Below are positions 22,158 to 33,268 of a DNA stretch of 64,000 nucleotides, one piece after another (positions within the stretch are counted from its first letter, which is position 1; each line of letters opens with the position of its first letter). The notes under the pieces were generated by a model. That model had not been told where the DNA came from, did no database searches, and worked only from the letters and a program-made list of their open reading frames with translations. A program made the translations under genes and the position numbers. This stretch comes from Bacteroidota bacterium (lineage in GTDB: Bacteria; Bacteroidota; Ignavibacteria; Kryptoniales; JAKASW01), in assembly GCA_021845665.1 (NCBI GenBank), contig JAJZVO010000003.1, positions 1 through 64,000 on the forward strand, read 5' to 3'.

Positions 22158-22619
22158 TCAGTCGCCCTGTGAACGGAGGAGAATGGCTTTCAGGTCGGTT
22201 ATTTCTTTCTCCTGAGTCTCCAGCTTGCCGTAGAGATCGACGAGGTGTTCGTAGAGTTGATTCTCCAATATTCTCGATTGTGACACGTCTTCGAAGTGAA
22301 ATACAATCTCACCCCTCGCATCGTTCAGGTTGTAGGCTTTCACTTTGAAGTATTTCTCTGTACCCCTTTGCTTCAAGGTACGCGCGCTCTCTCCTCGCGA
22401 AAGACAGTCGGTGACGATCCGGTCAAACGCAACGGAGTCTTCCGACTGAAGGAACTCGTCCATCTCCAGCTTTTTCCCTCTCTCCAGTCTCAACGGCAAC
22501 ACCTCCCGGGCAAACTGGTTCGCATAGACGAGAACAAGATTGGTGTCGGTGAGCACAAACGGAATGCGTACGGTCTCGAAGACCCGATAGCAATCGGAAA
22601 AAATAGTTTGCTCTGCCAT
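22158..22619 (-). CDS. Single-PAS-domain protein with C-terminal coiled coil
   Basis: VFETVRIPFVLTDTNLVLVYANQFAREVL... and VEDLYGKLETQEKEITDLKAILL-like tail. Confidence 0.65.
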   Translation of the reverse strand: MAEQTIFSDCYRVFETVRIPFVLTDTNLVLVYANQFAREVLPLRLERGKKLEMDEFLQSEDSVAFDRIVTDCLSRGESARTLKQRGTEKYFKVKAYNLNDARGEIVFHFEDVSQSRILENQLYEHLVDLYGKLETQEKEITDLKAILLRSQGD

Positions 22620-22775: not shown

Positions 22776-23135
22776 TCAGCTTCCGAGGTAAACGACTTCT
22801 ACTTTCGACACCCCTCTGAAATCATTGGTGCTGAAATCACGCACCTGTCCTTGTCGCAAGTCGATAGTAGCCTTGGTGGAGTTGCCCTTCTTCATTTTGA
22901 TGAGAACATTCTGCGGACAACTGAACGAGAGGACGGGCTCGTCTTGTGTACCATGCCCCGACACCAATCGAAGTGACTGACTTTGCCTCGCGACCGGGGT
23001 TATCGTCAGGCCGGGGGCCGCAATTACAGTTAGTGTCACTGTTGCCGAGGCGCTCACCTGGGCCTGAGTCGCGGGCGCTAAGAAAACGATCACTCCTAAC
23101 GCAAGCATCGGCGATATGTACCACGGTTTCTTCAT
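22776..23135 (-). CDS. Small secreted protein, possible fimbrial/tip-position component of the chaperone-usher-like locus
   Basis: Signal peptide (MKKPWYISPMLALGVIVFLAPATQAQ). Mature N-terminus QVSASATVTLTVIAAPGLTI resembles the N-termini of the neighbouring DUF4402-like subunits. Confidence 0.5.
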   Translation of the reverse strand: MKKPWYISPMLALGVIVFLAPATQAQVSASATVTLTVIAAPGLTITPVARQSQSLRLVSGHGTQDEPVLSFSCPQNVLIKMKKGNSTKATIDLRQGQVRDFSTNDFRGVSKVEVVYLGS

Positions 23136-23388
23136 TGTCTTCGAGCAGTTTAAGTACGAAGACAATGCCAAAGTTAGATCCGGCCCCCTCCTTCCACCCC
23201 ATCGCCATAACTATCGGCGATTTAACATGTTACATGTCCAGCGTAATTCCGTCTTTGCGCGCACAGACATAACAACCTGTAAAATTTTCCGCATCTGAGG
23301 AAGAAACTACGTGGGGGAGAAGATTAAACATGACATCCTCCCTATCCATGGCCAGCCCCTTGTTGTCGAATGAATCCGGCTGCACCAC

Positions 23389-23552
23389 CTAGAGACGCGG
23401 CCGAAAAGTCCAACCACGAGAGCACGAAGATTTTTCACGAAGGACACGAAGGGATCTATTCATTTATCGCTCTTTCTTTGTGCTCTTTGCGCCCTTTCTT
23501 CGTGACCTCGCGGTTGAATAGTTTTGCAGCGGGTTTTCGGCCACGTCCCTAG
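23389..23552. mobile_element. MITE-like palindromic element with CTAG ends
   Basis: Terminal repeats CTAGAGACGCGGCCGAAAA / TTTTCGGCCACGTCCCTAG match 17/19 after reverse complementing. Nested inner arms AACCACGAGAGCACGAAGA / TCTTCGTGACCTCGCGGTT match 16/19. Confidence 0.7.
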
Positions 23553-26323
23553 AAGCCGGATTTTGGCGAGTGGCGCTCCACCAGGACTTGACCCGTTCCA
23601 ACTCTTCCATCCTTGGCAAACTTGACAGCACTTTCTTTCGAAGTAAACGCACCTACTTGTACAGAATATTTTGTAGGGGGTGTTAACATTCCCACTTCTG
23701 CAGAGGGATTACTCTTCATAGGTTTTGGCTTCGGACGAGATTTAAGAATAATCTTGAGACCATCGATAATGTCTCCGTCCTTGGTGGATTTGACGGTGAA
23801 CCGTAGAATCGCCGGGTTGGCATCGACCCCGAGTATCGACAATTGAGCCGAGTCGATGTGTGCTTCGTACCCGCCGGGAGGAAGGCCCATGTAATAGAAA
23901 CTCCCGTCGTTGAACACGGGGACTGTCTTCTTGAAGCTTCCGTTATCGGACGCAATATCGAGGCTCAATCCGGGGATAGCCGAGAGCACTCCTTTTTCAT
24001 CGCGCAGGACAGTTCCTTCGGCTATGCCTCCTGCATAAAAGGGTATATCGATCCTCTCATACATGTCGGGGTCGGTGATGAAAGAGAAGGACTTCCATTT
24101 CGGAATCAGCAGAGGATTTCTAATCGTACTCATATCGACATCGGCAGTATACTGGGTGTAAGGGAGCATGTTCCATTCCCTTGTGATGCCGTTGCTCGAT
24201 TGTTCCGTCGACACGGCCTGCCTGAGCGTGATGTCGCCGTGCCGGATAATCTCTTCACCCTTATCGTATCGGCCGTTGCCGTTGGCATCGACGAACATCC
24301 TCACCGAAGCCGCCGAACGCCCGACCCATCCGAGGTCGTTAAACATGAATTGGCCGTAATTGCCGTCGTACCCGACCGAGCCTGAGAAGTTCTGACTGTA
24401 GAATCCTGAGCTTCCCTGGAACTGGGCGCTCGTAGTCGATCTCATGAACGGTAGATCGGCAATAATCTGAAGGTTAAATGTCGTTGCATTGTTGATGTAA
24501 TTTCGATCCGCCGTGAAGCCAATCCTGATGTATCGCTGAACGTCCTTCGAGATTTGAATCGAGATGTCGTCAAGAGATTTTTTCAAGACGCCATATCGCG
24601 TGGATACATTGACCAGTGTTCCGTTCAAAAAGTCGAAAGAACCGTGCGGGAAGAAGAGCGAGTATAAGATGGACCCGGTCAGATCGTAAGTGCTGATTGC
24701 CGGCCCGACACCGTAATTGATGATCGATCTGGTATATCCGGCGCTGATATTCATTTGTGACAGGCTCGAGGAGAAATTCGCGGAATAACTATAAGCTTTC
24801 TGCCCGCCGTAGTAAGTCTGGTAACTTCCGGCGGCCCTGAAATTCAGGGAACTCCTCCCGATATAGAACGGCATGAAAGCATCGGCCTGCATTTCCTGCA
24901 ACCGGAGGCCGGGGTTGTAGAGCATGTTCTGACTATAGCGACCGTATTCAAGATCGAATGCAGCCTGCGAAGCATAGAGAGCGCTGAACGTCGATCTGTA
25001 AAATGCATCCGGGGCCGCATCGATGCTCATCGTGTATTCAGGACCGAACCGCAAATAGAGAGAGTTGTACAGCAATGGCTTCGAGAACAAAGGGTTGTCG
25101 ACGTAATCCATCCCGATTTTGTCAGTGGCCCAATCGGTGATACCGAACAACGCATTCGCCGAGAGAAATTCATAGTCGGTGTTGTTGACCAGTCCGGAGC
25201 TGACTGTGTAATTGATCTGACCGGCCGGCACGAAGGAGAAGGGGATTTGAAGCCGGCGGTCCTGTTCACGGAACTGTCCGTTTGGTCCGTAGTACTTGAT
25301 CTGAATGAATGTGGTACCATAGACGAGCGGAATGGAAAACTGCGCTCTTCCCTGGGCATCGGCGTGCTTGTAGCCGGCGAGCTGACCGTTCAGATAGAGC
25401 TCGACGTCCCAGTTCGGATTTGTCCGCGCATTGATGATGTATTGACCGAACAGCGTCCTGACGGTCAGCGGTGCATTCGACACCTGCACACCGCGGAACC
25501 CATAGCTCGTTAAACCGTTCGAGTAGAGATTGCCGAGCCCCGCATACGTTATATAAGCAGAAGAATCGAATGTGTATTTCCAGTTTAGTGTACTCGAATA
25601 GACAGTCGGGGTGCTTCCTGTAACGCCGCCGAGCACGCTCCCTTCAGTCTGTCCGCCGAGTACTTCCCCGCCTCCAGTTAAATTGTAACTATACGAAGTG
25701 GGCCCACCGGTATTGAATGCCGACAGCGAGTAATCGACGACTCCTCCGTTGAGCAGGTATTTCTTCCCCGGAAATTTCAGGGGAGCCTGTTCCAGATTCG
25801 TCAGCGGAGAGACGACCATATAATTACGCCGCATTTCCCGCTGATAATCCCGGACTATCGGAAGATCCTGATTGGTGCTAAGTATCAGCGAGAGCGAATT
25901 GAAATCTATGTTGAAATCGAGACCGAAGGCTTCCTTGAAGAAGGAAGGAAGGACGTAGTAATCAAGCTGTCCCTGAATGACTTTAGAGGTGTCGAACCGG
26001 AAGGTTCTGCTGCCGATTCTTCCCACGCCCGTTCCAAAATTTATATGGTAGAGATCTTTCTGATCGATGTAAAACCCCGTCAGTGTCTTGGCCCGCATAT
26101 CGACGTTCTCGGCAACCCTGAGTTGTCTCAGAACCGTTCCGATCGGAAGATAGACCGAGTCCTGATAGTAAAGCCCGGTTACTACGGAATTGACAATGCC
26201 GCTGAAGCTGAAAGAGAGGTATATATCCTGCGCTTCCTGATATGCAGAGACATTCTGTGCCCTTGCAGAATTAGCAAGGAGCGCGATGAGAATGGACGTC
26301 CAGATAAACCTTCGTGCGCAGAT
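23549..26323 (-). CDS. Outer-membrane usher-like protein with truncated C-terminal SPOR-like domain
   Basis: Usher-like features: NWDVELYLNGQLAGYKHADAQGRAQFSIPLVYGTTFIQIKYYGPNGQ and a long beta-strand-rich region. The tail YSVQVGAFTSKESAVKFAKDG is SPOR-like. Coding continues upstream of the first ATG (26098) through a signal peptide. The start shown is a candidate ATC codon. Confidence 0.65.
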   Translation of the reverse strand: MCARRFIWTSILIALLANSARAQNVSAYQEAQDIYLSFSFSGIVNSVVTGLYYQDSVYLPIGTVLRQLRVAENVDMRAKTLTGFYIDQKDLYHINFGTGVGRIGSRTFRFDTSKVIQGQLDYYVLPSFFKEAFGLDFNIDFNSLSLILSTNQDLPIVRDYQREMRRNYMVVSPLTNLEQAPLKFPGKKYLLNGGVVDYSLSAFNTGGPTSYSYNLTGGGEVLGGQTEGSVLGGVTGSTPTVYSSTLNWKYTFDSSAYITYAGLGNLYSNGLTSYGFRGVQVSNAPLTVRTLFGQYIINARTNPNWDVELYLNGQLAGYKHADAQGRAQFSIPLVYGTTFIQIKYYGPNGQFREQDRRLQIPFSFVPAGQINYTVSSGLVNNTDYEFLSANALFGITDWATDKIGMDYVDNPLFSKPLLYNSLYLRFGPEYTMSIDAAPDAFYRSTFSALYASQAAFDLEYGRYSQNMLYNPGLRLQEMQADAFMPFYIGRSSLNFRAAGSYQTYYGGQKAYSYSANFSSSLSQMNISAGYTRSIINYGVGPAISTYDLTGSILYSLFFPHGSFDFLNGTLVNVSTRYGVLKKSLDDISIQISKDVQRYIRIGFTADRNYINNATTFNLQIIADLPFMRSTTSAQFQGSSGFYSQNFSGSVGYDGNYGQFMFNDLGWVGRSAASVRMFVDANGNGRYDKGEEIIRHGDITLRQAVSTEQSSNGITREWNMLPYTQYTADVDMSTIRNPLLIPKWKSFSFITDPDMYERIDIPFYAGGIAEGTVLRDEKGVLSAIPGLSLDIASDNGSFKKTVPVFNDGSFYYMGLPPGGYEAHIDSAQLSILGVDANPAILRFTVKSTKDGDIIDGLKIILKSRPKPKPMKSNPSAEVGMLTPPTKYSVQVGAFTSKESAVKFAKDGRVGTGQVLVERHSPKSGF

Positions 26324-26404
26324 GTGTTACTCCCGCGTGTTTCTTTCCTTGTAGCCCAATGACAACTTCAGCCCGGCCCTGAGAAAGATCAGGCCGGTTG
26401 AAGG

Positions 26405-27226
26405 TCACTCCATTCTGAATACGAACGACTTTTCCACGGCAGGGACCTTGATTATGTCGTCACCGGGGATGTCGGTCCTTTCAGATTCCAATTTGAAGTC
26501 CGCAGTGTACACTCCGCTCCTTAGATCGGAGAGCGGGACAGGGAATTTTATCACCATCTTGTTCTGGTAAATGGCAAGCACCTGCTGGTTTGAGTACACT
26601 GTGTTTCCGGCATGATCCTTCACAACCACAGACATTCTTCCAAAGAAGGGGGAGTTTCCGCCGCGCGCGACATCGGCCAGGAGGTTCATCGACGTGCTGT
26701 CCTGATACGAAACCAAATTGGGGATCTGGACGCTCGTATTGACATACCCCTTTTTAAAAATCACTGTCGTGACTTGTTGCAGCACAAAAGTGATGTTCGC
26801 GGTAATCCCGTTCCTGACAGTGTCGATAGTCTTTGCCTGAGGAGTCGAGCTCGTGATCAGTCGTGTCCAGTACTCACCGTCAGTGATACCTGCGGGCGGA
26901 GACGCCAGTAGGCGAACCACCTGTTGCTGCCCCGGATTCACGATGAACTTCTGAGGAAATCCGTGGAGCCACGGTTCACAGGAATGCTCGCTGGCCATCA
27001 CGGAGTCGTTATAGTTCATGGTTATGTTCCCGAGTGAATCCGATTCGGGAAATCCGAACTTGAACGATATTGTGATTTCCTGGGGGGCGTTCGACCTGTT
27101 CATCACCACAAAAGTGCCGAAGCGGGACTGGTCGCCCATGAATAGTATTGTCGGAGCGACGATCACCTGTGCCCTCGCGGCTGCGAAGGACAAGAGGATC
27201 AACAACGCGGATAGTGTTTTTTTCAT
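26405..27226 (-). CDS. PapD-like periplasmic fimbrial chaperone
   Basis: Signal peptide; VIVAPTILFMGDQSRFGTFVVMNRSNAPQEITISFKFG...FIVNPGQQQVVRLLASPPAGITDGEYWTRL (chaperone beta-sandwich pattern). Sits next to the usher. Confidence 0.75.
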   Translation of the reverse strand: MKKTLSALLILLSFAAARAQVIVAPTILFMGDQSRFGTFVVMNRSNAPQEITISFKFGFPESDSLGNITMNYNDSVMASEHSCEPWLHGFPQKFIVNPGQQQVVRLLASPPAGITDGEYWTRLITSSTPQAKTIDTVRNGITANITFVLQQVTTVIFKKGYVNTSVQIPNLVSYQDSTSMNLLADVARGGNSPFFGRMSVVVKDHAGNTVYSNQQVLAIYQNKMVIKFPVPLSDLRSGVYTADFKLESERTDIPGDDIIKVPAVEKSFVFRME

Positions 27227-27265
27227 GCCCGTAATTTAATTGTTTAACAATTATGTCCCAACGTT

Positions 27266-28219
27266 TCAGTAGCTTACAGTCAACGTGAAGGTTCCACTGT
27301 ATGCTCCCGGAAGCTGGCTCGGGGGTACCGCAGCGATCGATCCGCCGAGCCAGAAATAATAGAAACCTGTCTGACCCGCGCTTCCGCTCAGGACCACCGT
27401 CGATTGCGAAGCCACAGAGGCGGCACCAGACTGGCCGGTTGAGCTGCTCGATCCGCACAGGCTCGGAATGAATGTTATCGTGTTGCCGTACATATCGCTG
27501 ATCGGGACGGAAGATGAGTAGGATACGGTTATGGTTTTCCCTCCGGTACCGGCGGCGGTTATCTCAGGTGCGGAGCCGCTTTGCGCAGAGATTGCGGGAG
27601 GGGTCGTGCCGGCTATGATCTGACCGAAATTGAGCGATCCCGTCTCAGTCATTGAAAGTCCCTGGATGACAGACGCGCTTACAGGGATTGTCTGGCTTAC
27701 CGTATATCTGGCTTTAGGTTTTGTGACCGAAATATTGACCGTAACACTTATTGTCCCAGTGTAATCTCCCGAAGGAAGCCAGCTCCCGCCCGGGGCAGCG
27801 GTTCCACCGATCCATATGTATAAATCGAGAGGTGTGTTTGCATACAGCTGCTGATAGATCCCCGAGCTTGGACCGAAGTAAGTAATCCCGGAGAAGCTGT
27901 TGGTCGTGTTCCAGCCCGCCGAGTTGGACGTGTAGGAAACGTTCATCGTATGGCTGCCGCCCGCCGTCAAACTATAGGGTACGGTGATCGAGACCTGTAT
28001 GCTGGCATAAGCATACTTTGACATCGTATACCCCGGCACCTGTATCAGGAACGAAGCTGCTGTCGGGTCAGTCGGAGCAACCGTGTTAGTGGTGTTCCCG
28101 AGAGACATGCCGAAAGTGAGATCGTTGAAAACGGTAATTGTGGGTGACTGAGCTTTCAAAATGGGAACATCAATCGTTAACATGACAAGCAACACTGATA
28201 TGTTTAATAGCTTCTTCAT
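27266..28219 (-). CDS. Secreted two-domain DUF4402-like subunit/adhesin
   Basis: Signal peptide and two repeats of the (D/S)L(T/N)FG...GxYxGTxxxxV pattern, ending PGAYSGTFTLTVSY. Confidence 0.65.
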   Translation of the reverse strand: MKKLLNISVLLVMLTIDVPILKAQSPTITVFNDLTFGMSLGNTTNTVAPTDPTAASFLIQVPGYTMSKYAYASIQVSITVPYSLTAGGSHTMNVSYTSNSAGWNTTNSFSGITYFGPSSGIYQQLYANTPLDLYIWIGGTAAPGGSWLPSGDYTGTISVTVNISVTKPKARYTVSQTIPVSASVIQGLSMTETGSLNFGQIIAGTTPPAISAQSGSAPEITAAGTGGKTITVSYSSSVPISDMYGNTITFIPSLCGSSSSTGQSGAASVASQSTVVLSGSAGQTGFYYFWLGGSIAAVPPSQLPGAYSGTFTLTVSY

Positions 28220-28337
28220 GCTGTCCTTCGGTAATGTAGCTCAAACACGTAGATATGGCAAAACCTCGAGAGACAGTTGCGCCAAGAATATCTGGAGCTT
28301 CCGCCGGCCGCAAACACACGGAAAGTGCGGCACATTT

Positions 28338-28601
28338 TCACAATATAACCATCTTTCTATGATATGTAACCAAGGTAGACGGGTCTCCTGAAGTTACCGA
28401 ACCGCTTTGCTCTTTAGGCCTGGCATGGTACACGGCTGCGGTGGCGTTATTGTAAGCCAGCGTGGTCGTTCTAGTGATACTGCGGAACGAAAGGTTCCTG
28501 GTAACCACAATGGTGCCGCTCCGGGCCATGGACTCGCCAGCCGCTGCCAGCAGCAGGAAAATCATGACAGATATCTGACGCAATCGCTTCATAGATTTCA
28601 T
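28338..28601 (-). pseudogene. Truncated DUF4402-like subunit
   Basis: Signal peptide then NLSFRSITRTTTLAYNNATAAVY. The C-terminal GxYxGT half is absent. Confidence 0.5.
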
Positions 28602-28655
28602 CTCAAACCCGACCCGAAAGAGACTGCCACATCGCTCCGATCCATTGATACATGA

Positions 28656-29400
28656 TTAATATGAAACGCTCACGAGGTATGTCCCGGTGTAAATTCCGGG
28701 AGGCACCGTCCCGACATTCACGGAGCCGAAAATATATACAAAAGCGCCCGCCGTCTGGCCCGAGCGGTTCGCACGCAGCCTTATCCCGGTCTGTGTCCCT
28801 GACGGCGTTGTCCAGATCGTAGCGGATGCAGGCGCATCGGCGGTATTGTTATGGCCCGCTCCCGGAGTATATGGTATAGAGTTGCTCCCGTTGATGAGCG
28901 AGACCGGCAGAGTGAGCGTAACGTAGACTGTCTTATTGAACTGTCCCGATATGGTGACCTTTCCCGCTGCCGCATCGGTTATCGTCACCGAGTCAATGCT
29001 CGTTCCCGCTACTGCATTTCCAAAATTCAATCCTTTATCAGCATAAACAGAAAGTCCCACCGCAACGCCGATCGAAACCGACCTCGTCTGTGCGCTCGAG
29101 GATTGAGCCTTGAGATCCGACAAATGAGAAGGCGATGAGAATGCCGATCGCAAACAGGCTTGCCAATGAACTCGTGTTCGGGTTAATCGACGCAGTGGTG
29201 TTTACAATAGTGAGTCCGAAGTTGAGGTCGCCGGCGCCGTCGTTGTCGGAAGAGGATGTGATGGAAACGATAGGGAGAATTGAGAGCGATATGACAGCTT
29301 GTAAGCAGGCGGAAACCTGAGCTTTGGCCGAATCGGCCAAAAAGGCTAAGAGAAGACCAAGTGCGGCCGATTTCCTTCCTTTGAGAATTCCAGAGTTCAT
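28656..29400 (-). pseudogene. DUF4402-like subunit gene(s), apparently fused and frameshifted
   Basis: The N-terminal part is in the frame of ORF 29038..29484 (MNSGILKGRKSAALGLLLAFLADSAKAQ...LNFGLTIVNTTASINPNTSSLASLFAIGILIAF). The mature part is in the other frame, ORF 28656..29153 (SDLKAQSSSAQTRSVSIG...PPGIYTGTYLVSVSY). Confidence 0.6.
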
Positions 29401-29634
29401 GACACTGCGCGCAGAAAGGACTTTGTTGCGAACGCAATAAGACCCGGCACGCAATAGTTCATGCTCATCGAAAATTGGAGGCACTGTCTTTCAACGCTCC
29501 ACGATATCATTTCAGCTTTCACGATAATAAGGACAATCAAAAGGAAAGGCTCAGCTAGCCCACTGAGCCTTGGTTCTAAACATATCATCGATCTTGCTCC
29601 CAGGCAGAAAGCCATGGTTGAAAAACGAATCGAC

Positions 29635-30138
29635 TTAGTTGTAGGTTGCTGTGAGCGTGTACGTACCCTTATAAACACCCGCCGTGGTCGAAGTTGTCAC
29701 GTTTACAGAACCTCCCAGCAGAAAATAATAATGGCCTGGGTGCGCAGAGCTAGGGGCTCCTAACGGGTACTGCGTATTGTCGGCAGCATCACTACCAACG
29801 GTGGTTCCGTCTACGGAGCATTTCAGATCAGGTGTGAAGACGATCGTCGAAGCGTCGCTAATATTGGTAAGTACAGGAGAACTCGGCAGGGTAATTTCGA
29901 AACTTGCACTGTCTGTCCCTGAGACAATGAACGTCGCGCCACTTCCAACGGCAATTGTCGGTGTGGCAGCAACCCCTTGCGGCACCATGCCGAAATCAAG
30001 TGACCCGCTAACGCTCATTTGCATGGCCGCAAGGACCTGTAGTTGCAGATTTGCAGAGTTGGTGGCGGTGTTGTACTGCGCCAACGACATTCCGGACATG
30101 CCGAGGACCATCGTCGCTACTAACAATAATTTCTTCAT
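29635..30138 (-). CDS. DUF4402-like secreted subunit (intact)
   Basis: Signal peptide MKKLLLVATMVLGMSGMSLAQ; SGSLDFGMVPQG...AGVYKGTYTLTATYN. Confidence 0.7.
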   Translation of the reverse strand: MKKLLLVATMVLGMSGMSLAQYNTATNSANLQLQVLAAMQMSVSGSLDFGMVPQGVAATPTIAVGSGATFIVSGTDSASFEITLPSSPVLTNISDASTIVFTPDLKCSVDGTTVGSDAADNTQYPLGAPSSAHPGHYYFLLGGSVNVTTSTTAGVYKGTYTLTATYN

Positions 30139-30512
30139 TTAAAGCCTCCTGTTAAGGATTTTGGCTCCGCCGCTCTTCCCCTCCGGGAGGAACAACCGAC
30201 GAAGGCCGGTTTGTGAAATTGTTTTGCTCCATAGCCAGAGCTTATAGGACAAAGCGCGTGCCGGAAAGTAAGTGTGTTCCAGCATGGATTCGAGTTCCCC
30301 CGCGGCAGGATTTCTTATGGAGTTACCGGATCGTAATGGAGGAGGCCGTTAATGTAACAGAAACATCTCATGCCGATTACCTGCCATACGGCAGTGGTAC
30401 ACTCACGATACGCCGGAGCAATTCGATCTCATTATCTACACCTTAAGCTGGAGCTTTCGATTTTCACAGAACTTCAGCTCATTTCCCACTCGCCTCGGAA
30501 CAAGTACCTCAA

Positions 30513-30574
30513 TTCGTAATGACCGCTCACCGTCGCCTAATGCAAAATTAGGATTTCGTAAATGCCGCTCACCG
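30513..30574. repeat. Two ~20-bp direct repeats (42-bp period) flanking a hairpin
   Basis: TTCGTAATGACCGCTCACCG (30513) and TTCGTAAATGCCGCTCACCG (30555), with CCTAAT-gcaaa-ATTAGG between. Confidence 0.6.
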
Positions 30575-30650
30575 GTTTGCTAAGAGGGATGAACGCTTTG
30601 CAACAAGCAGCCGCTGCTTGGCTTTGGGCATCTCACAGCAGCATGAGGTG

Positions 30651-30755
30651 TTCCAAAAGCGGCATCGATTGAAATCGACGCCTCGCAAAACATGAAACCC
30701 GGAGGGTTTTACGCTGCTGGTAGCCGTCCGATTCATCGGATGGCTCCTTTTGGGA
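30651..30755. ncRNA. Candidate structured RNA or structured intergenic repeat (multibranched)
   Basis: Outer stem TTCCAAAAG/CTTTTGGGA encloses three hairpins: GGCATCGAT-tgaa-ATCGACGCC, AAACCC-gga-GGGTTT and AGCCGTCCGA-ttca-TCGGATGGCT. No family identified; strand unresolved. Confidence 0.35.
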
Positions 30756-30803
30756 CACACCTTCCTTGCTCAATCAGGTAACGATGCTTCTTGCGGGCTA
30801 GGC

Positions 30804-30832
30804 ACAAAAAAAGGGAGCCGGACCGGGCTCCC
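30804..30832 (-). terminator. Rho-independent terminator downstream of GH31 gene
   Basis: Minus strand GGGAGCC-(loop)-GGCTCCC followed by a T-run (plus strand AAAAAAA at 30806..30812). Confidence 0.8.
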
Positions 30833-30868
30833 TCACTACGCAAATGTCTCTTTTGTAATCCGGGACGC

Positions 30869-33268
30869 TTACTCTACGTGGATCGAGCGTACCCCGACAT
30901 CGAACGGCAGCGATACCTGTACCACCCCGCCTGAAAGATTTTCTATGGTGCACTTGACAGTTCCGCCGCCGCTCAACTTCGCGACCGCTTCGCGCGCCGG
31001 CGCGGGCATCCGGAGCCGGACTGTGAGTTCTTTATATGCCGGCTTGAATTCCCCTTCGGGCTTGAACTCGACATCGGCACTTCGTCCCGTCCGCTTCACC
31101 GCTACATCCATATTCAGGTAGTCGCCGTGCCGGAACGCGTACGTTTCACCGTCGTCGAAGTATGCGCCCCCCTCAGCATCACCATTGCCGTAAGCGCGGA
31201 CGCAAAGTGTGTCTGCCTGCTCGCTCGTCGACTGGATCAGGCTCTGCGTGAAGAGCACGGTACCCTCTTTCACGAACACAGGCGTGAACCCGAGCGGCGC
31301 GTTCACTTCGTGCCATCCGCCGGAAATTTCCGACCCGTCGTACATGCTCGCCCATTGGCCGGGCGGCAGGTAGACATCCCTTTTCACCGCGCCGGAGTCG
31401 AGGACGGGAGCGACGAGGAGTTTGCTTCCGAACGAGAATTCGTTGTAGATCTTATAGGCTTCCGGATCGTTCGGGAAATTAATATACAACGGCCTGATTA
31501 TGGGAAGCCCGGTCTCGTGCGCTTCCCTGAATGCCGAGTAGACTTCCGGCATGAGCTCATATCTCCTGTCGATTATCTCACGGTTCAGCTTCGTATACGG
31601 CTGTCCGAACGACCACGGCTGGCGCTGTTTTGAATCCTTCACGCTGTGGGTCCTGAAGAAAGGCGTGAATGCGCCGAGCTCCAGCCATCGGGTGTAGAGT
31701 TCAGGCGAGGGGTTGCCGACGAAGCCGCCGACGTCGCTGCCGACGAACGGCTGGCCGCTGACGCCGATGTTCAGGAACATCGCGAGCGCGAGCTTCAGAT
31801 GGGCGAAGCTGGCGAAGTTGTCGCCGGTCCACATCGCCGCGTAACGCTGGCCGCCGGCATAATTGGACCGCGTCAGGACGAATGGGCGCTTGCCCGGCTC
31901 GAGCTTTTCGAGCCCATCCCTGGTGCCGCGCGCCATCTGCATGCCGTACGCGTTGTGAACCTCGTAGTGTTCCACCATATCGCCGTCGATGTCCTGCAGG
32001 ACGTCGGGCGGGAAAGTCTTGTTGGGCGTGTTGAACACGCTCGGCTCGTTCATGTCGTTCCAGAACCCGTCAACGCCGTAATCGAGCAGGTACTTATATT
32101 GCTCACCCCACCACTCTCTCGCCTTCCTGTCGAAGAAATCGGGGAACACGCAGTTGCCGGGCCATACCCGGCCGACGAAGTACTTTCCGTCAGGGAGTTT
32201 CACGAAGGCATCTTTCTTGATGCCGCTGTCGTAGACGCGGTACCCTTTCTCGTCCTTGATGCCGGGATCGATGATGGTCACCACCTTAAAGCCGAGCGAA
32301 TGGAGCGTGTCGAGCATCTTGCGCGGAGTCGGAAAGTTCTTCGGGCTCCAGGTGAAGCACCTGTACCCGTCCATGTAGTCGATGTCGAGGAAGATGACGT
32401 CGCATGGTATCTGCTCTTTCCGGAATTTGTGGGCAAGATCGAGCACCCTCGATTCGGGATAATAGCTCCACCTCGACTGCTGGTAGCCGAGCGACCAGAT
32501 CGGCGGCATGTGCATCCTGCCGGTCAGATCCGAAAATTTCCTTACGACCTCCGCTGCGTTCTTCCCCGTGATTATGTAGAGTTGAAACGCGCCGGCCCTG
32601 GCGGTATATACGAACCTGTCGCTGTCCGTCTTGCCGATATCAAAGGTAGTGCGCGAAGGATTATCGAGGAAGATTCCGTAGGCGCCGCCCGGATCCGCCT
32701 TGAGCAGAAATGGAACGGTCTCATATAACGGATCGAACTTGACGGCGTACGCCGGGTGGTCGGTATTCCACATCGTCCAGCGGCTGTCGTACTTGTTATA
32801 CGGAAGTGTCTTCTCGCCGAGCCCGTAGAAATCACGCGCGCCGTGGATATTGAAATCGGCAACGAGACCCGAGTCGCCGAACTCGACCTTATCGAGGTCG
32901 ACGATGTCTTTCCCATTGTCAGAGACAAATCTGAGTTTCATTGTCTCCGGAGAAAACTCGATAGAGCCCTCAGGCAATTTCACCCTGATCGTCTCTTTTC
33001 CGACTTCCATTTTGTAACCGGACAGCTCTTCCGGAGATTCGATGACTGCAAAAGACTTGAGTGCCTTGCCGCCCCGTTCCAGCGTCAGGTGGAAAATCCC
33101 CGGTTTGAAGAGTTGTACTTTCGCCTTACCGGACTCGTAGTCCGCTACAACTTCGTGCGTGGACTTCTCCACGCTTTTAAGTCTGCCAAGTGCACCCATT
33201 TCGTCAGCTTTGTTGTGATTGGTTCCCAGAAAGGTCCCGAGACTAAGTATCAAGGCATAGATGAACAT
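30869..33268 (-). CDS. Glycoside hydrolase family 31 (alpha-glucosidase/alpha-xylosidase-like)
   Basis: PIWSLGYQQSRWSYYPESRVLDLAHKFRKEQIPCDVIFLDIDYMDGYRCFTW; DGFWNDMNEPSVF; RSNYAGGQRYAAMWTGDN. Confidence 0.95.
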   Translation of the reverse strand: MFIYALILSLGTFLGTNHNKADEMGALGRLKSVEKSTHEVVADYESGKAKVQLFKPGIFHLTLERGGKALKSFAVIESPEELSGYKMEVGKETIRVKLPEGSIEFSPETMKLRFVSDNGKDIVDLDKVEFGDSGLVADFNIHGARDFYGLGEKTLPYNKYDSRWTMWNTDHPAYAVKFDPLYETVPFLLKADPGGAYGIFLDNPSRTTFDIGKTDSDRFVYTARAGAFQLYIITGKNAAEVVRKFSDLTGRMHMPPIWSLGYQQSRWSYYPESRVLDLAHKFRKEQIPCDVIFLDIDYMDGYRCFTWSPKNFPTPRKMLDTLHSLGFKVVTIIDPGIKDEKGYRVYDSGIKKDAFVKLPDGKYFVGRVWPGNCVFPDFFDRKAREWWGEQYKYLLDYGVDGFWNDMNEPSVFNTPNKTFPPDVLQDIDGDMVEHYEVHNAYGMQMARGTRDGLEKLEPGKRPFVLTRSNYAGGQRYAAMWTGDNFASFAHLKLALAMFLNIGVSGQPFVGSDVGGFVGNPSPELYTRWLELGAFTPFFRTHSVKDSKQRQPWSFGQPYTKLNREIIDRRYELMPEVYSAFREAHETGLPIIRPLYINFPNDPEAYKIYNEFSFGSKLLVAPVLDSGAVKRDVYLPPGQWASMYDGSEISGGWHEVNAPLGFTPVFVKEGTVLFTQSLIQSTSEQADTLCVRAYGNGDAEGGAYFDDGETYAFRHGDYLNMDVAVKRTGRSADVEFKPEGEFKPAYKELTVRLRMPAPAREAVAKLSGGGTVKCTIENLSGGVVQVSLPFDVGVRSIHVE

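Follow-up and report, generated by a model that had tools for sequence, protein, structure and literature searches.

Does the minus-strand gene block that runs from position 30138 to position 22158 of the window (the whole 64,000-nucleotide stretch of DNA analysed here) encode a chaperone-usher pilus, and, if so, to which class of that pathway does it belong? The preliminary description of the locus proposed a divergent surface-appendage system of the chaperone-usher type, non-proteobacterial and csu-like in gene order. Comparison supports the first part of this proposal for the usher, the PapD-like chaperone, and the pilin-fold subunits alike, and the locus, known here from sequence and predicted structures, is very probably an operon for chaperone-usher pili that forms part of a separate branch, termed the DUF4402 branch. 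The other two attributes did not hold, as described below.

Organization of the Locus

The genes of the block encode, in this order, DUF4402 subunits, a chaperone, an usher-like protein, a 119-aa secreted protein, and a PAS protein. The succession from subunits to small secreted protein had been recognized beforehand, and all features reported for it are present. The predicted features are as follows, where L035 is an intact relative:

29635–30138, minus strand: single-domain DUF4402 pilin, 167 aa (PF14352, E 7e-9; AlphaFold; Foldseek)
29154–29400, minus strand: remnant of a second pilin with signal peptide, extension, first strand, and a 389-bp deletion joint (frame translation; comparison with L035)
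28656–29153, minus strand: third pilin, body intact, start and signal peptide in another frame, i.e., a broken 5′ end (PF14352, E 1.1e-5; comparison with L035)
28338–28601, minus strand: truncated 87-aa remnant of a two-domain subunit (the L035 counterpart is intact, a 317-aa frame)
27266–28219, minus strand: two-domain DUF4402 protein, 317 aa, without N-terminal extension, candidate tip adhesin (PF14352, E 1e-7)
26405–27226, minus strand: PapD-like periplasmic chaperone, 273 aa (profile against E. coli fimbrial chaperones; PapD_N)
23549–26323, minus strand: predicted usher with signal peptide, N-terminal domain, plugged barrel, C-terminal domains, and half a SPOR domain (hhalign)
25247–25438, minus strand: predicted usher plug (middle) domain, residues ~297–360 (collinear with the FimD plug; local model match)
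23561–23677, minus strand: first half of SPOR domain 1, the remainder lost here and present in relatives (SPOR, 13.7 bits)
23388–23550, no strand assigned: 163-bp interspersed repeat within the usher gene (at least 25 genome copies; its flanks are adjacent residues of SPOR domain 1 in relatives)
22776–23135, minus strand: 119-aa secreted protein with a donor-strand-like N-terminus and no DUF4402 body (subunit profile match, N-terminal part only)
22158–22619, minus strand: PAS-domain protein, 153 aa, last gene of the strand, candidate regulator (PF08448, E 5.4e-7)

The order subunits–chaperone–usher is kept in the loci of the genus that were examined, most of which then have a small secreted protein, usually with the PAS gene next to it. 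The same order was recovered in loci of many Bacteroidota families as well, and an arrangement repeated so widely, within the genus and beyond it, is not due to chance. The PAS gene adjoins the pilus locus in at least seven related genomes; this PAS-only protein is a conserved neighbour of the operon in the genus and a possible regulator. No inverted repeats of the kind that mark an invertible promoter were found upstream (positions 30100–30900), and a search for structured RNA found none.

DUF4402 Subunits as Pilins

The subunits are, as first described, DUF4402-like secreted proteins: the 167-aa, 165-aa, and 317-aa proteins match PF14352 (E-values of 7e-9, 1.1e-5, and 1e-7, respectively), and a full Pfam scan of the window subunits found no SCPU domain (PF05229). 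The 167-aa subunit consists of a signal peptide, an N-terminal extension of ~26 residues that would serve as its donor strand, a pilin body, and a C-terminal G-x11-Y motif. Its AlphaFold model has a pLDDT of ~90 over residues 40–167, residues 1–37 being of low confidence, and the top Foldseek matches of this model, CfaB, Caf1, Csu (CsuA/B), and PapE, are chaperone-usher pilins. The (D/S)LxFG start and GxYxGTxxxxxxY end noticed at the outset proved to be real, with a Gly at position −13/−14 and a Tyr at position −1/−2 in 75 of 111 family subunits versus 14 of 1726 other reading frames. The comparison thus shows that the DUF4402 subunits, as modelled, have the chaperone-usher pilin fold, an N-terminal extension of 20–30 residues, and the pilin C-terminal motif.

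Tip Candidate and the 119-aa Protein

In chaperone-usher pili, the tip subunit accepts a donor strand and gives none. Signal peptides and extensions were measured with a crude script. In the genus, the distance from the signal peptide to the first LxFG strand is mostly 25–31 residues in single-domain subunits versus 10–14 in the two-domain subunits that precede the chaperone; a crude test of extension length over all subunits gave p = 1.7e-5. In the window protein at 27266–28219, the first xFG strand begins 10 residues past the signal peptide, and this shortness is conserved across the genus, whose operons, as far as examined, mostly contain one or two subunits without an N-terminal extension. 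In other families, a single-domain subunit with 2–10 residues at this place is found instead. Since the two-domain protein has no donor strand, as a tip requires, it is a tip candidate, and these sequence features make it likely to be the tip adhesin.

The tip position had previously been assigned to the 119-aa protein behind the usher, and the mature N-terminus of this protein had been likened to the extensions of the subunits. The resemblance itself is borne out, since the N-terminus matches the subunit profile in five orthologues (E 1.4e-6 to 1e-4), mainly over the signal peptide and donor-strand region. Yet the protein has a donor strand and neither an acceptor groove nor a pilin body, the opposite of what a tip needs, and the assignment was therefore rejected. 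The protein is kept after the usher in the genus and has a conserved end of the ...VEIVYLGS type; judging from its sequence, it is more likely a pilus base or terminator than a tip, the terminator role being suggested by a short motif. At another locus (L105, 4815–5276), a divergent mini-DUF4402 protein of 111 aa (mature) lies beside the usher and recalls the 119-aa protein.

The tip candidate also bears on whether tipped pili are made at all. DUF4402 proteins might instead be exported as a surface coat or as short polyadhesins: the best structural matches include the capsular antigen Caf1, whose kind of amorphous fibre is built by the same machinery, and several different subunits per operon would permit a mixed coat. 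Caf1-type systems, however, usually have one subunit, and most operons of the genus retain the two-domain, extension-less subunit, which is the architecture of a tip adhesin. A coat is therefore considered unlikely, and the reading as tipped pili is followed below.

Chaperone

The protein at 26405–27226, described from the outset as a PapD-like chaperone, gives a weak PapD_N match (E 0.019) that is confirmed by profiles. Against the E. coli fimbrial (FimC family) chaperones, its profile scored 92.4% and then 95.1% (E 5e-7 to 3e-8), and a trimmed version scored 73.6%. The match covers domain 1 and strand G1, and over these parts the comparison shows the predicted chaperone to be PapD-like. PapD_N was also detected in 6 of 27 chaperone relatives, with a best E-value of 2.7e-8. 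In the PDB, the chaperone profile found the Enterococcus WxL-interacting protein WxLIP (E 8e-4) ahead of PapD (E 0.1), a hint that chaperone-like proteins with two Ig domains may form a wider family.

Usher

A profile built from 28 relatives of the predicted usher was aligned with six ushers of E. coli K-12 (FimD, EcpC, YraJ, HtrE, ElfC, and YehB) by hhalign at 98.3% (E 1.6e-14), and adding relatives raised this value to 98.9% and then 99.3% (E 9e-21). The alignment spans ~590 columns, from the start of the barrel through the plug to the C-terminal domain. The control barrels FhuA, BamA, LptD, and TamA reached 0.1–0.6%, and all controls stayed below 4%. With the parts taken separately, the barrel and plug scored 97.9% and the C-terminal part 57%. 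The N-terminal domain (~170 residues), which in known ushers is the docking site of the chaperone, matched that of FimD at 0.5%. The usher assignment thus stands for the barrel and plug (98–99%; structural match below), and its N-terminal domain finds no FimD counterpart.

Standard searches recover this family poorly. The Pfam Usher model gave no match to the window protein alone and found none of 61 relatives, though it found the E. coli ushers; among 24 wider relatives, PF00577 was detected in two at E ≤ 0.01, of which one (L101) reached 32.3 bits against a cut-off of 27.1. PDB searches with the single usher or chaperone sequence found nothing, and those with alignments of the two found no usher. 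The AlphaFold check, for which four sequences served as the alignment, gave a model that is poor overall (pLDDT 34.6); its global scores are not to be relied on, and it was used for the plug stretch only. Its best structural matches are nonetheless ushers: the four best PDB matches in Foldseek are FimD, and the middle stretch (local pLDDT ~65–79) matches the middle domain of Caf1A (3fcg) over 68 residues at 3.2 Å. Taken at the level of sequence, the comparison shows homology to known ushers over the barrel, plug, and C-terminal region.

The usher frame has an unusual beginning. It opens directly after a stop codon, its first codon (26323) is ATC, and no in-frame ATG, GTG, or TTG precedes the signal peptide, ahead of which this ATC, behind a GGGAG, is the sole start-like codon. 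ATC, then mostly TGC, occupies the same place in most relatives, and in one of them an ATG lies four codons upstream; the apparent ATC start is common to the window, L035, L036, L038, L040, and L041, with the GGGAG motif before it in several genomes. A start at AUC is therefore likely at 26323. ATC is a rare start codon and could keep usher levels low.

Distribution and Relatives

The usher was found in 12 of 13 genomes of the genus, the source genome counted. Among 393 Bacteroidota genomes, 87 have strong usher profile matches (E 1e-19 or better), and 86 of these 87 also have the chaperone. DUF4402 occurs in 63 of the 393 genomes, all 63 of them among the usher carriers (hypergeometric p = 2e-53, related genomes not being independent). 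Seven further relatives are borne on plasmids of Polaromonas, Novosphingobium, Sphingopyxis, and Pseudoalteromonas; since these are proteobacterial plasmids, the attribute "non-proteobacterial" is too narrow. In the six plasmid loci inspected, a chaperone or a hypothetical protein is followed by the usher, and annotated DUF4402 genes lie upstream in five. Public records name the ushers themselves "carboxypeptidase regulatory-like", SdrD B-like, or hypothetical proteins. One candidate for an archaic usher among the plasmid matches was inspected and belongs to a classical-type operon.

One alternative is that the locus is simply a diverged member of the archaic (sigma, Csu-type) class. The order subunits–chaperone–usher resembles csu, a Csu pilin is among the Foldseek matches of the subunit, and the archaic class is the most widely spread (PMC4654587, PMC9452303, PMC10104325). 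However, the subunits match DUF4402 only, with no SCPU in the full Pfam scan; the two-domain tip-like subunit lies upstream of the chaperone rather than after the usher as the last gene; and the Pfam Usher model that finds the E. coli proteins misses all 61 relatives. In a quick tree, moreover, a branch with an SH-aLRT of 95 parts the 50 DUF4402-type ushers from six classical ushers plus EcpC, although long branches meet there and archaic ushers are absent from the tree. A diverged archaic system thus appears decidedly improbable, and the label "csu-like", at odds with both the subunit family and the place of the tip-like gene, was dropped. That the large protein is another outer-membrane barrel or a carboxypeptidase-regulatory surface protein, accompanied by a WxLIP-like chaperone in no chaperone-usher system, would fit the public names of the relatives, the best PDB match of the chaperone profile, and the unmatched N-terminal domain, but is barely credible in view of the collinear usher homology over ~590 columns with clean controls, the above-cut-off Pfam Usher match of L101, the pilin fold of the subunits, and the near-perfect co-occurrence of usher, chaperone, and DUF4402.

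Cell-Wall Tails of the Ushers

The peptidoglycan-binding SPOR tail ascribed to the usher is real in the family, and half a domain is left in the window copy, which is cut by the 163-bp repeat. This half scores below the Pfam cut-off (13.7 versus 21 bits), while the intact orthologue in L035 reaches 59.4 bits. Where ushers of the genus are intact, they terminate in SPOR repeats, and related ushers reach a length of ~1,125 aa and contain several such units. SPOR was found in 17 of 28 close ushers and 6 of 24 wider ones, and a few family members carry LysM, OmpA, or TPR in place of SPOR or beside it. On the plasmids, the Pseudoalteromonas Bsw20308 usher has a fused SPOR domain, and in Pseudoalteromonas xiamenensis separate SPOR genes flank the operon on both sides. 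SPOR domains bind denuded peptidoglycan at septa; it is thus reasonable to suppose that SPOR-tailed ushers may place pili at septa or poles. Since SPOR is absent from many relatives, such septal anchoring cannot be general.

Decay of the Window Copy

Inside SPOR domain 1, the 163-bp repeat separates two codons that adjoin each other in relatives, and ~400 bp beyond it are missing by comparison with these. Sequencing error was rejected as the cause of the truncation, a full repeat element standing between adjacent codons of an intact gene. At least 25 copies of the element, 88–97% identical, are present in this genome and few or none in related genomes, which suggests a recent, mobile-like expansion. 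Furthermore, deletions or a frameshift have disrupted three of the subunit genes, all of them between 28338 and 29400: relative to L035, the pilin at 29154–29400 shows a clean 389-bp deletion joint, and in the region of 28338–28601, 56 bp stand in place of 772 bp. Misassembly in the metagenome bin is a possible source of the subunit deletions. One pilin, the tip candidate, the chaperone, and the usher core are still present. With its SPOR tail cut off and three subunit genes broken, the window copy is decaying, and without the tail and several pilins it is probably impaired.

The same genome has a second locus, on contig 133, in which four subunits and a chaperone accompany an usher reading frame of 1,142 aa; from its sequence, this locus appears to be intact. 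More DUF4402 genes, possibly orphan subunits, lie on contigs C92, C102, and C129, away from both usher loci.

Proposed Assembly and Its Implications

In the proposed mechanism, subunits would enter the periplasm by the Sec pathway, where each would receive a strand of the chaperone in its open groove. First to engage the usher, and hence to become the tip, would be the two-domain subunit that lacks an extension. Further pilins would be added by swapping their N-terminal strand for the chaperone strand and be pushed through the plug-gated barrel, until the small protein encoded after the usher, having a donor strand and no groove, would end growth or anchor the base. The SPOR, LysM, OmpA-like, or TPR tails found on many intact ushers probably tether the pore to the cell wall. 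With SPOR repeats, the division site would be preferred, and pili would then arise at septa and young poles.

We give even chances to a broader proposal, in which the DUF4402 branch would stand as a fourth major class beside the classical, alternative, and archaic ones. Such a class would extend across Bacteroidota and into parts of Proteobacteria, would have been overlooked because standard models fail to find its usher, and would have many ushers fused to wall-binding repeats that site assembly at the division septum. A phylum-wide branch, if true, would give DUF4402 a function, explain many "carboxypeptidase regulatory-like" proteins, and make a tie between pilus pore and cell wall testable.

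Comparison with Known Systems

To date, chaperone-usher (archaic) pili have been reported from Proteobacteria, Cyanobacteria, and Deinococcus-Thermus (PMC4654587, PMC10104325). In the open-access literature, no paper naming DUF4402 was found, and no such system is described for Bacteroidota in the titles and abstracts; since most subscription journals and preprints lay outside this search, novelty is provisional.

The classical pathway (FimC/FimD type 1 pili; PF00577, PF00345) shares with this locus a homologous usher barrel, plug, and C-terminal region, a PapD-like chaperone, the pilin fold with its C-terminal Gly/Tyr motif, and an extension-less tip-type subunit. The present system differs in that the usher of the genus is missed by Pfam and has an unmatched N-terminal domain, the pilins are DUF4402 proteins, many ushers have peptidoglycan-binding tails, and a two-domain subunit precedes the chaperone.

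The archaic Csu and CupE systems are alike in the order of subunits, chaperone, and usher, in having a two-domain tip subunit, and in their broad distribution. Here, however, the subunits are not SCPU proteins, and a 119-aa protein, not a two-domain adhesin, follows the usher.

Alternative (alpha) pili, such as CFA/I and ECP, provide the best structural matches of the subunit in CfaB, the major CFA/I pilin, but the locus has no sequence match to the alpha families, and these pili have been reported from beta- and gamma-proteobacteria only (PMC9452303).

Finally, the type V pili (Fim, Mfa), the best-known fimbriae of Bacteroidota, are surface fibres of the same phylum, for which strand exchange has been proposed too. 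They mature by protease cleavage and have no known chaperone or usher (PMC5789003), whereas both are encoded here, and a Pfam scan of the window found no match to their subunits. Overall, the system is apparently a separate and, provisionally, undescribed branch of the chaperone-usher pathway rather than a csu system.
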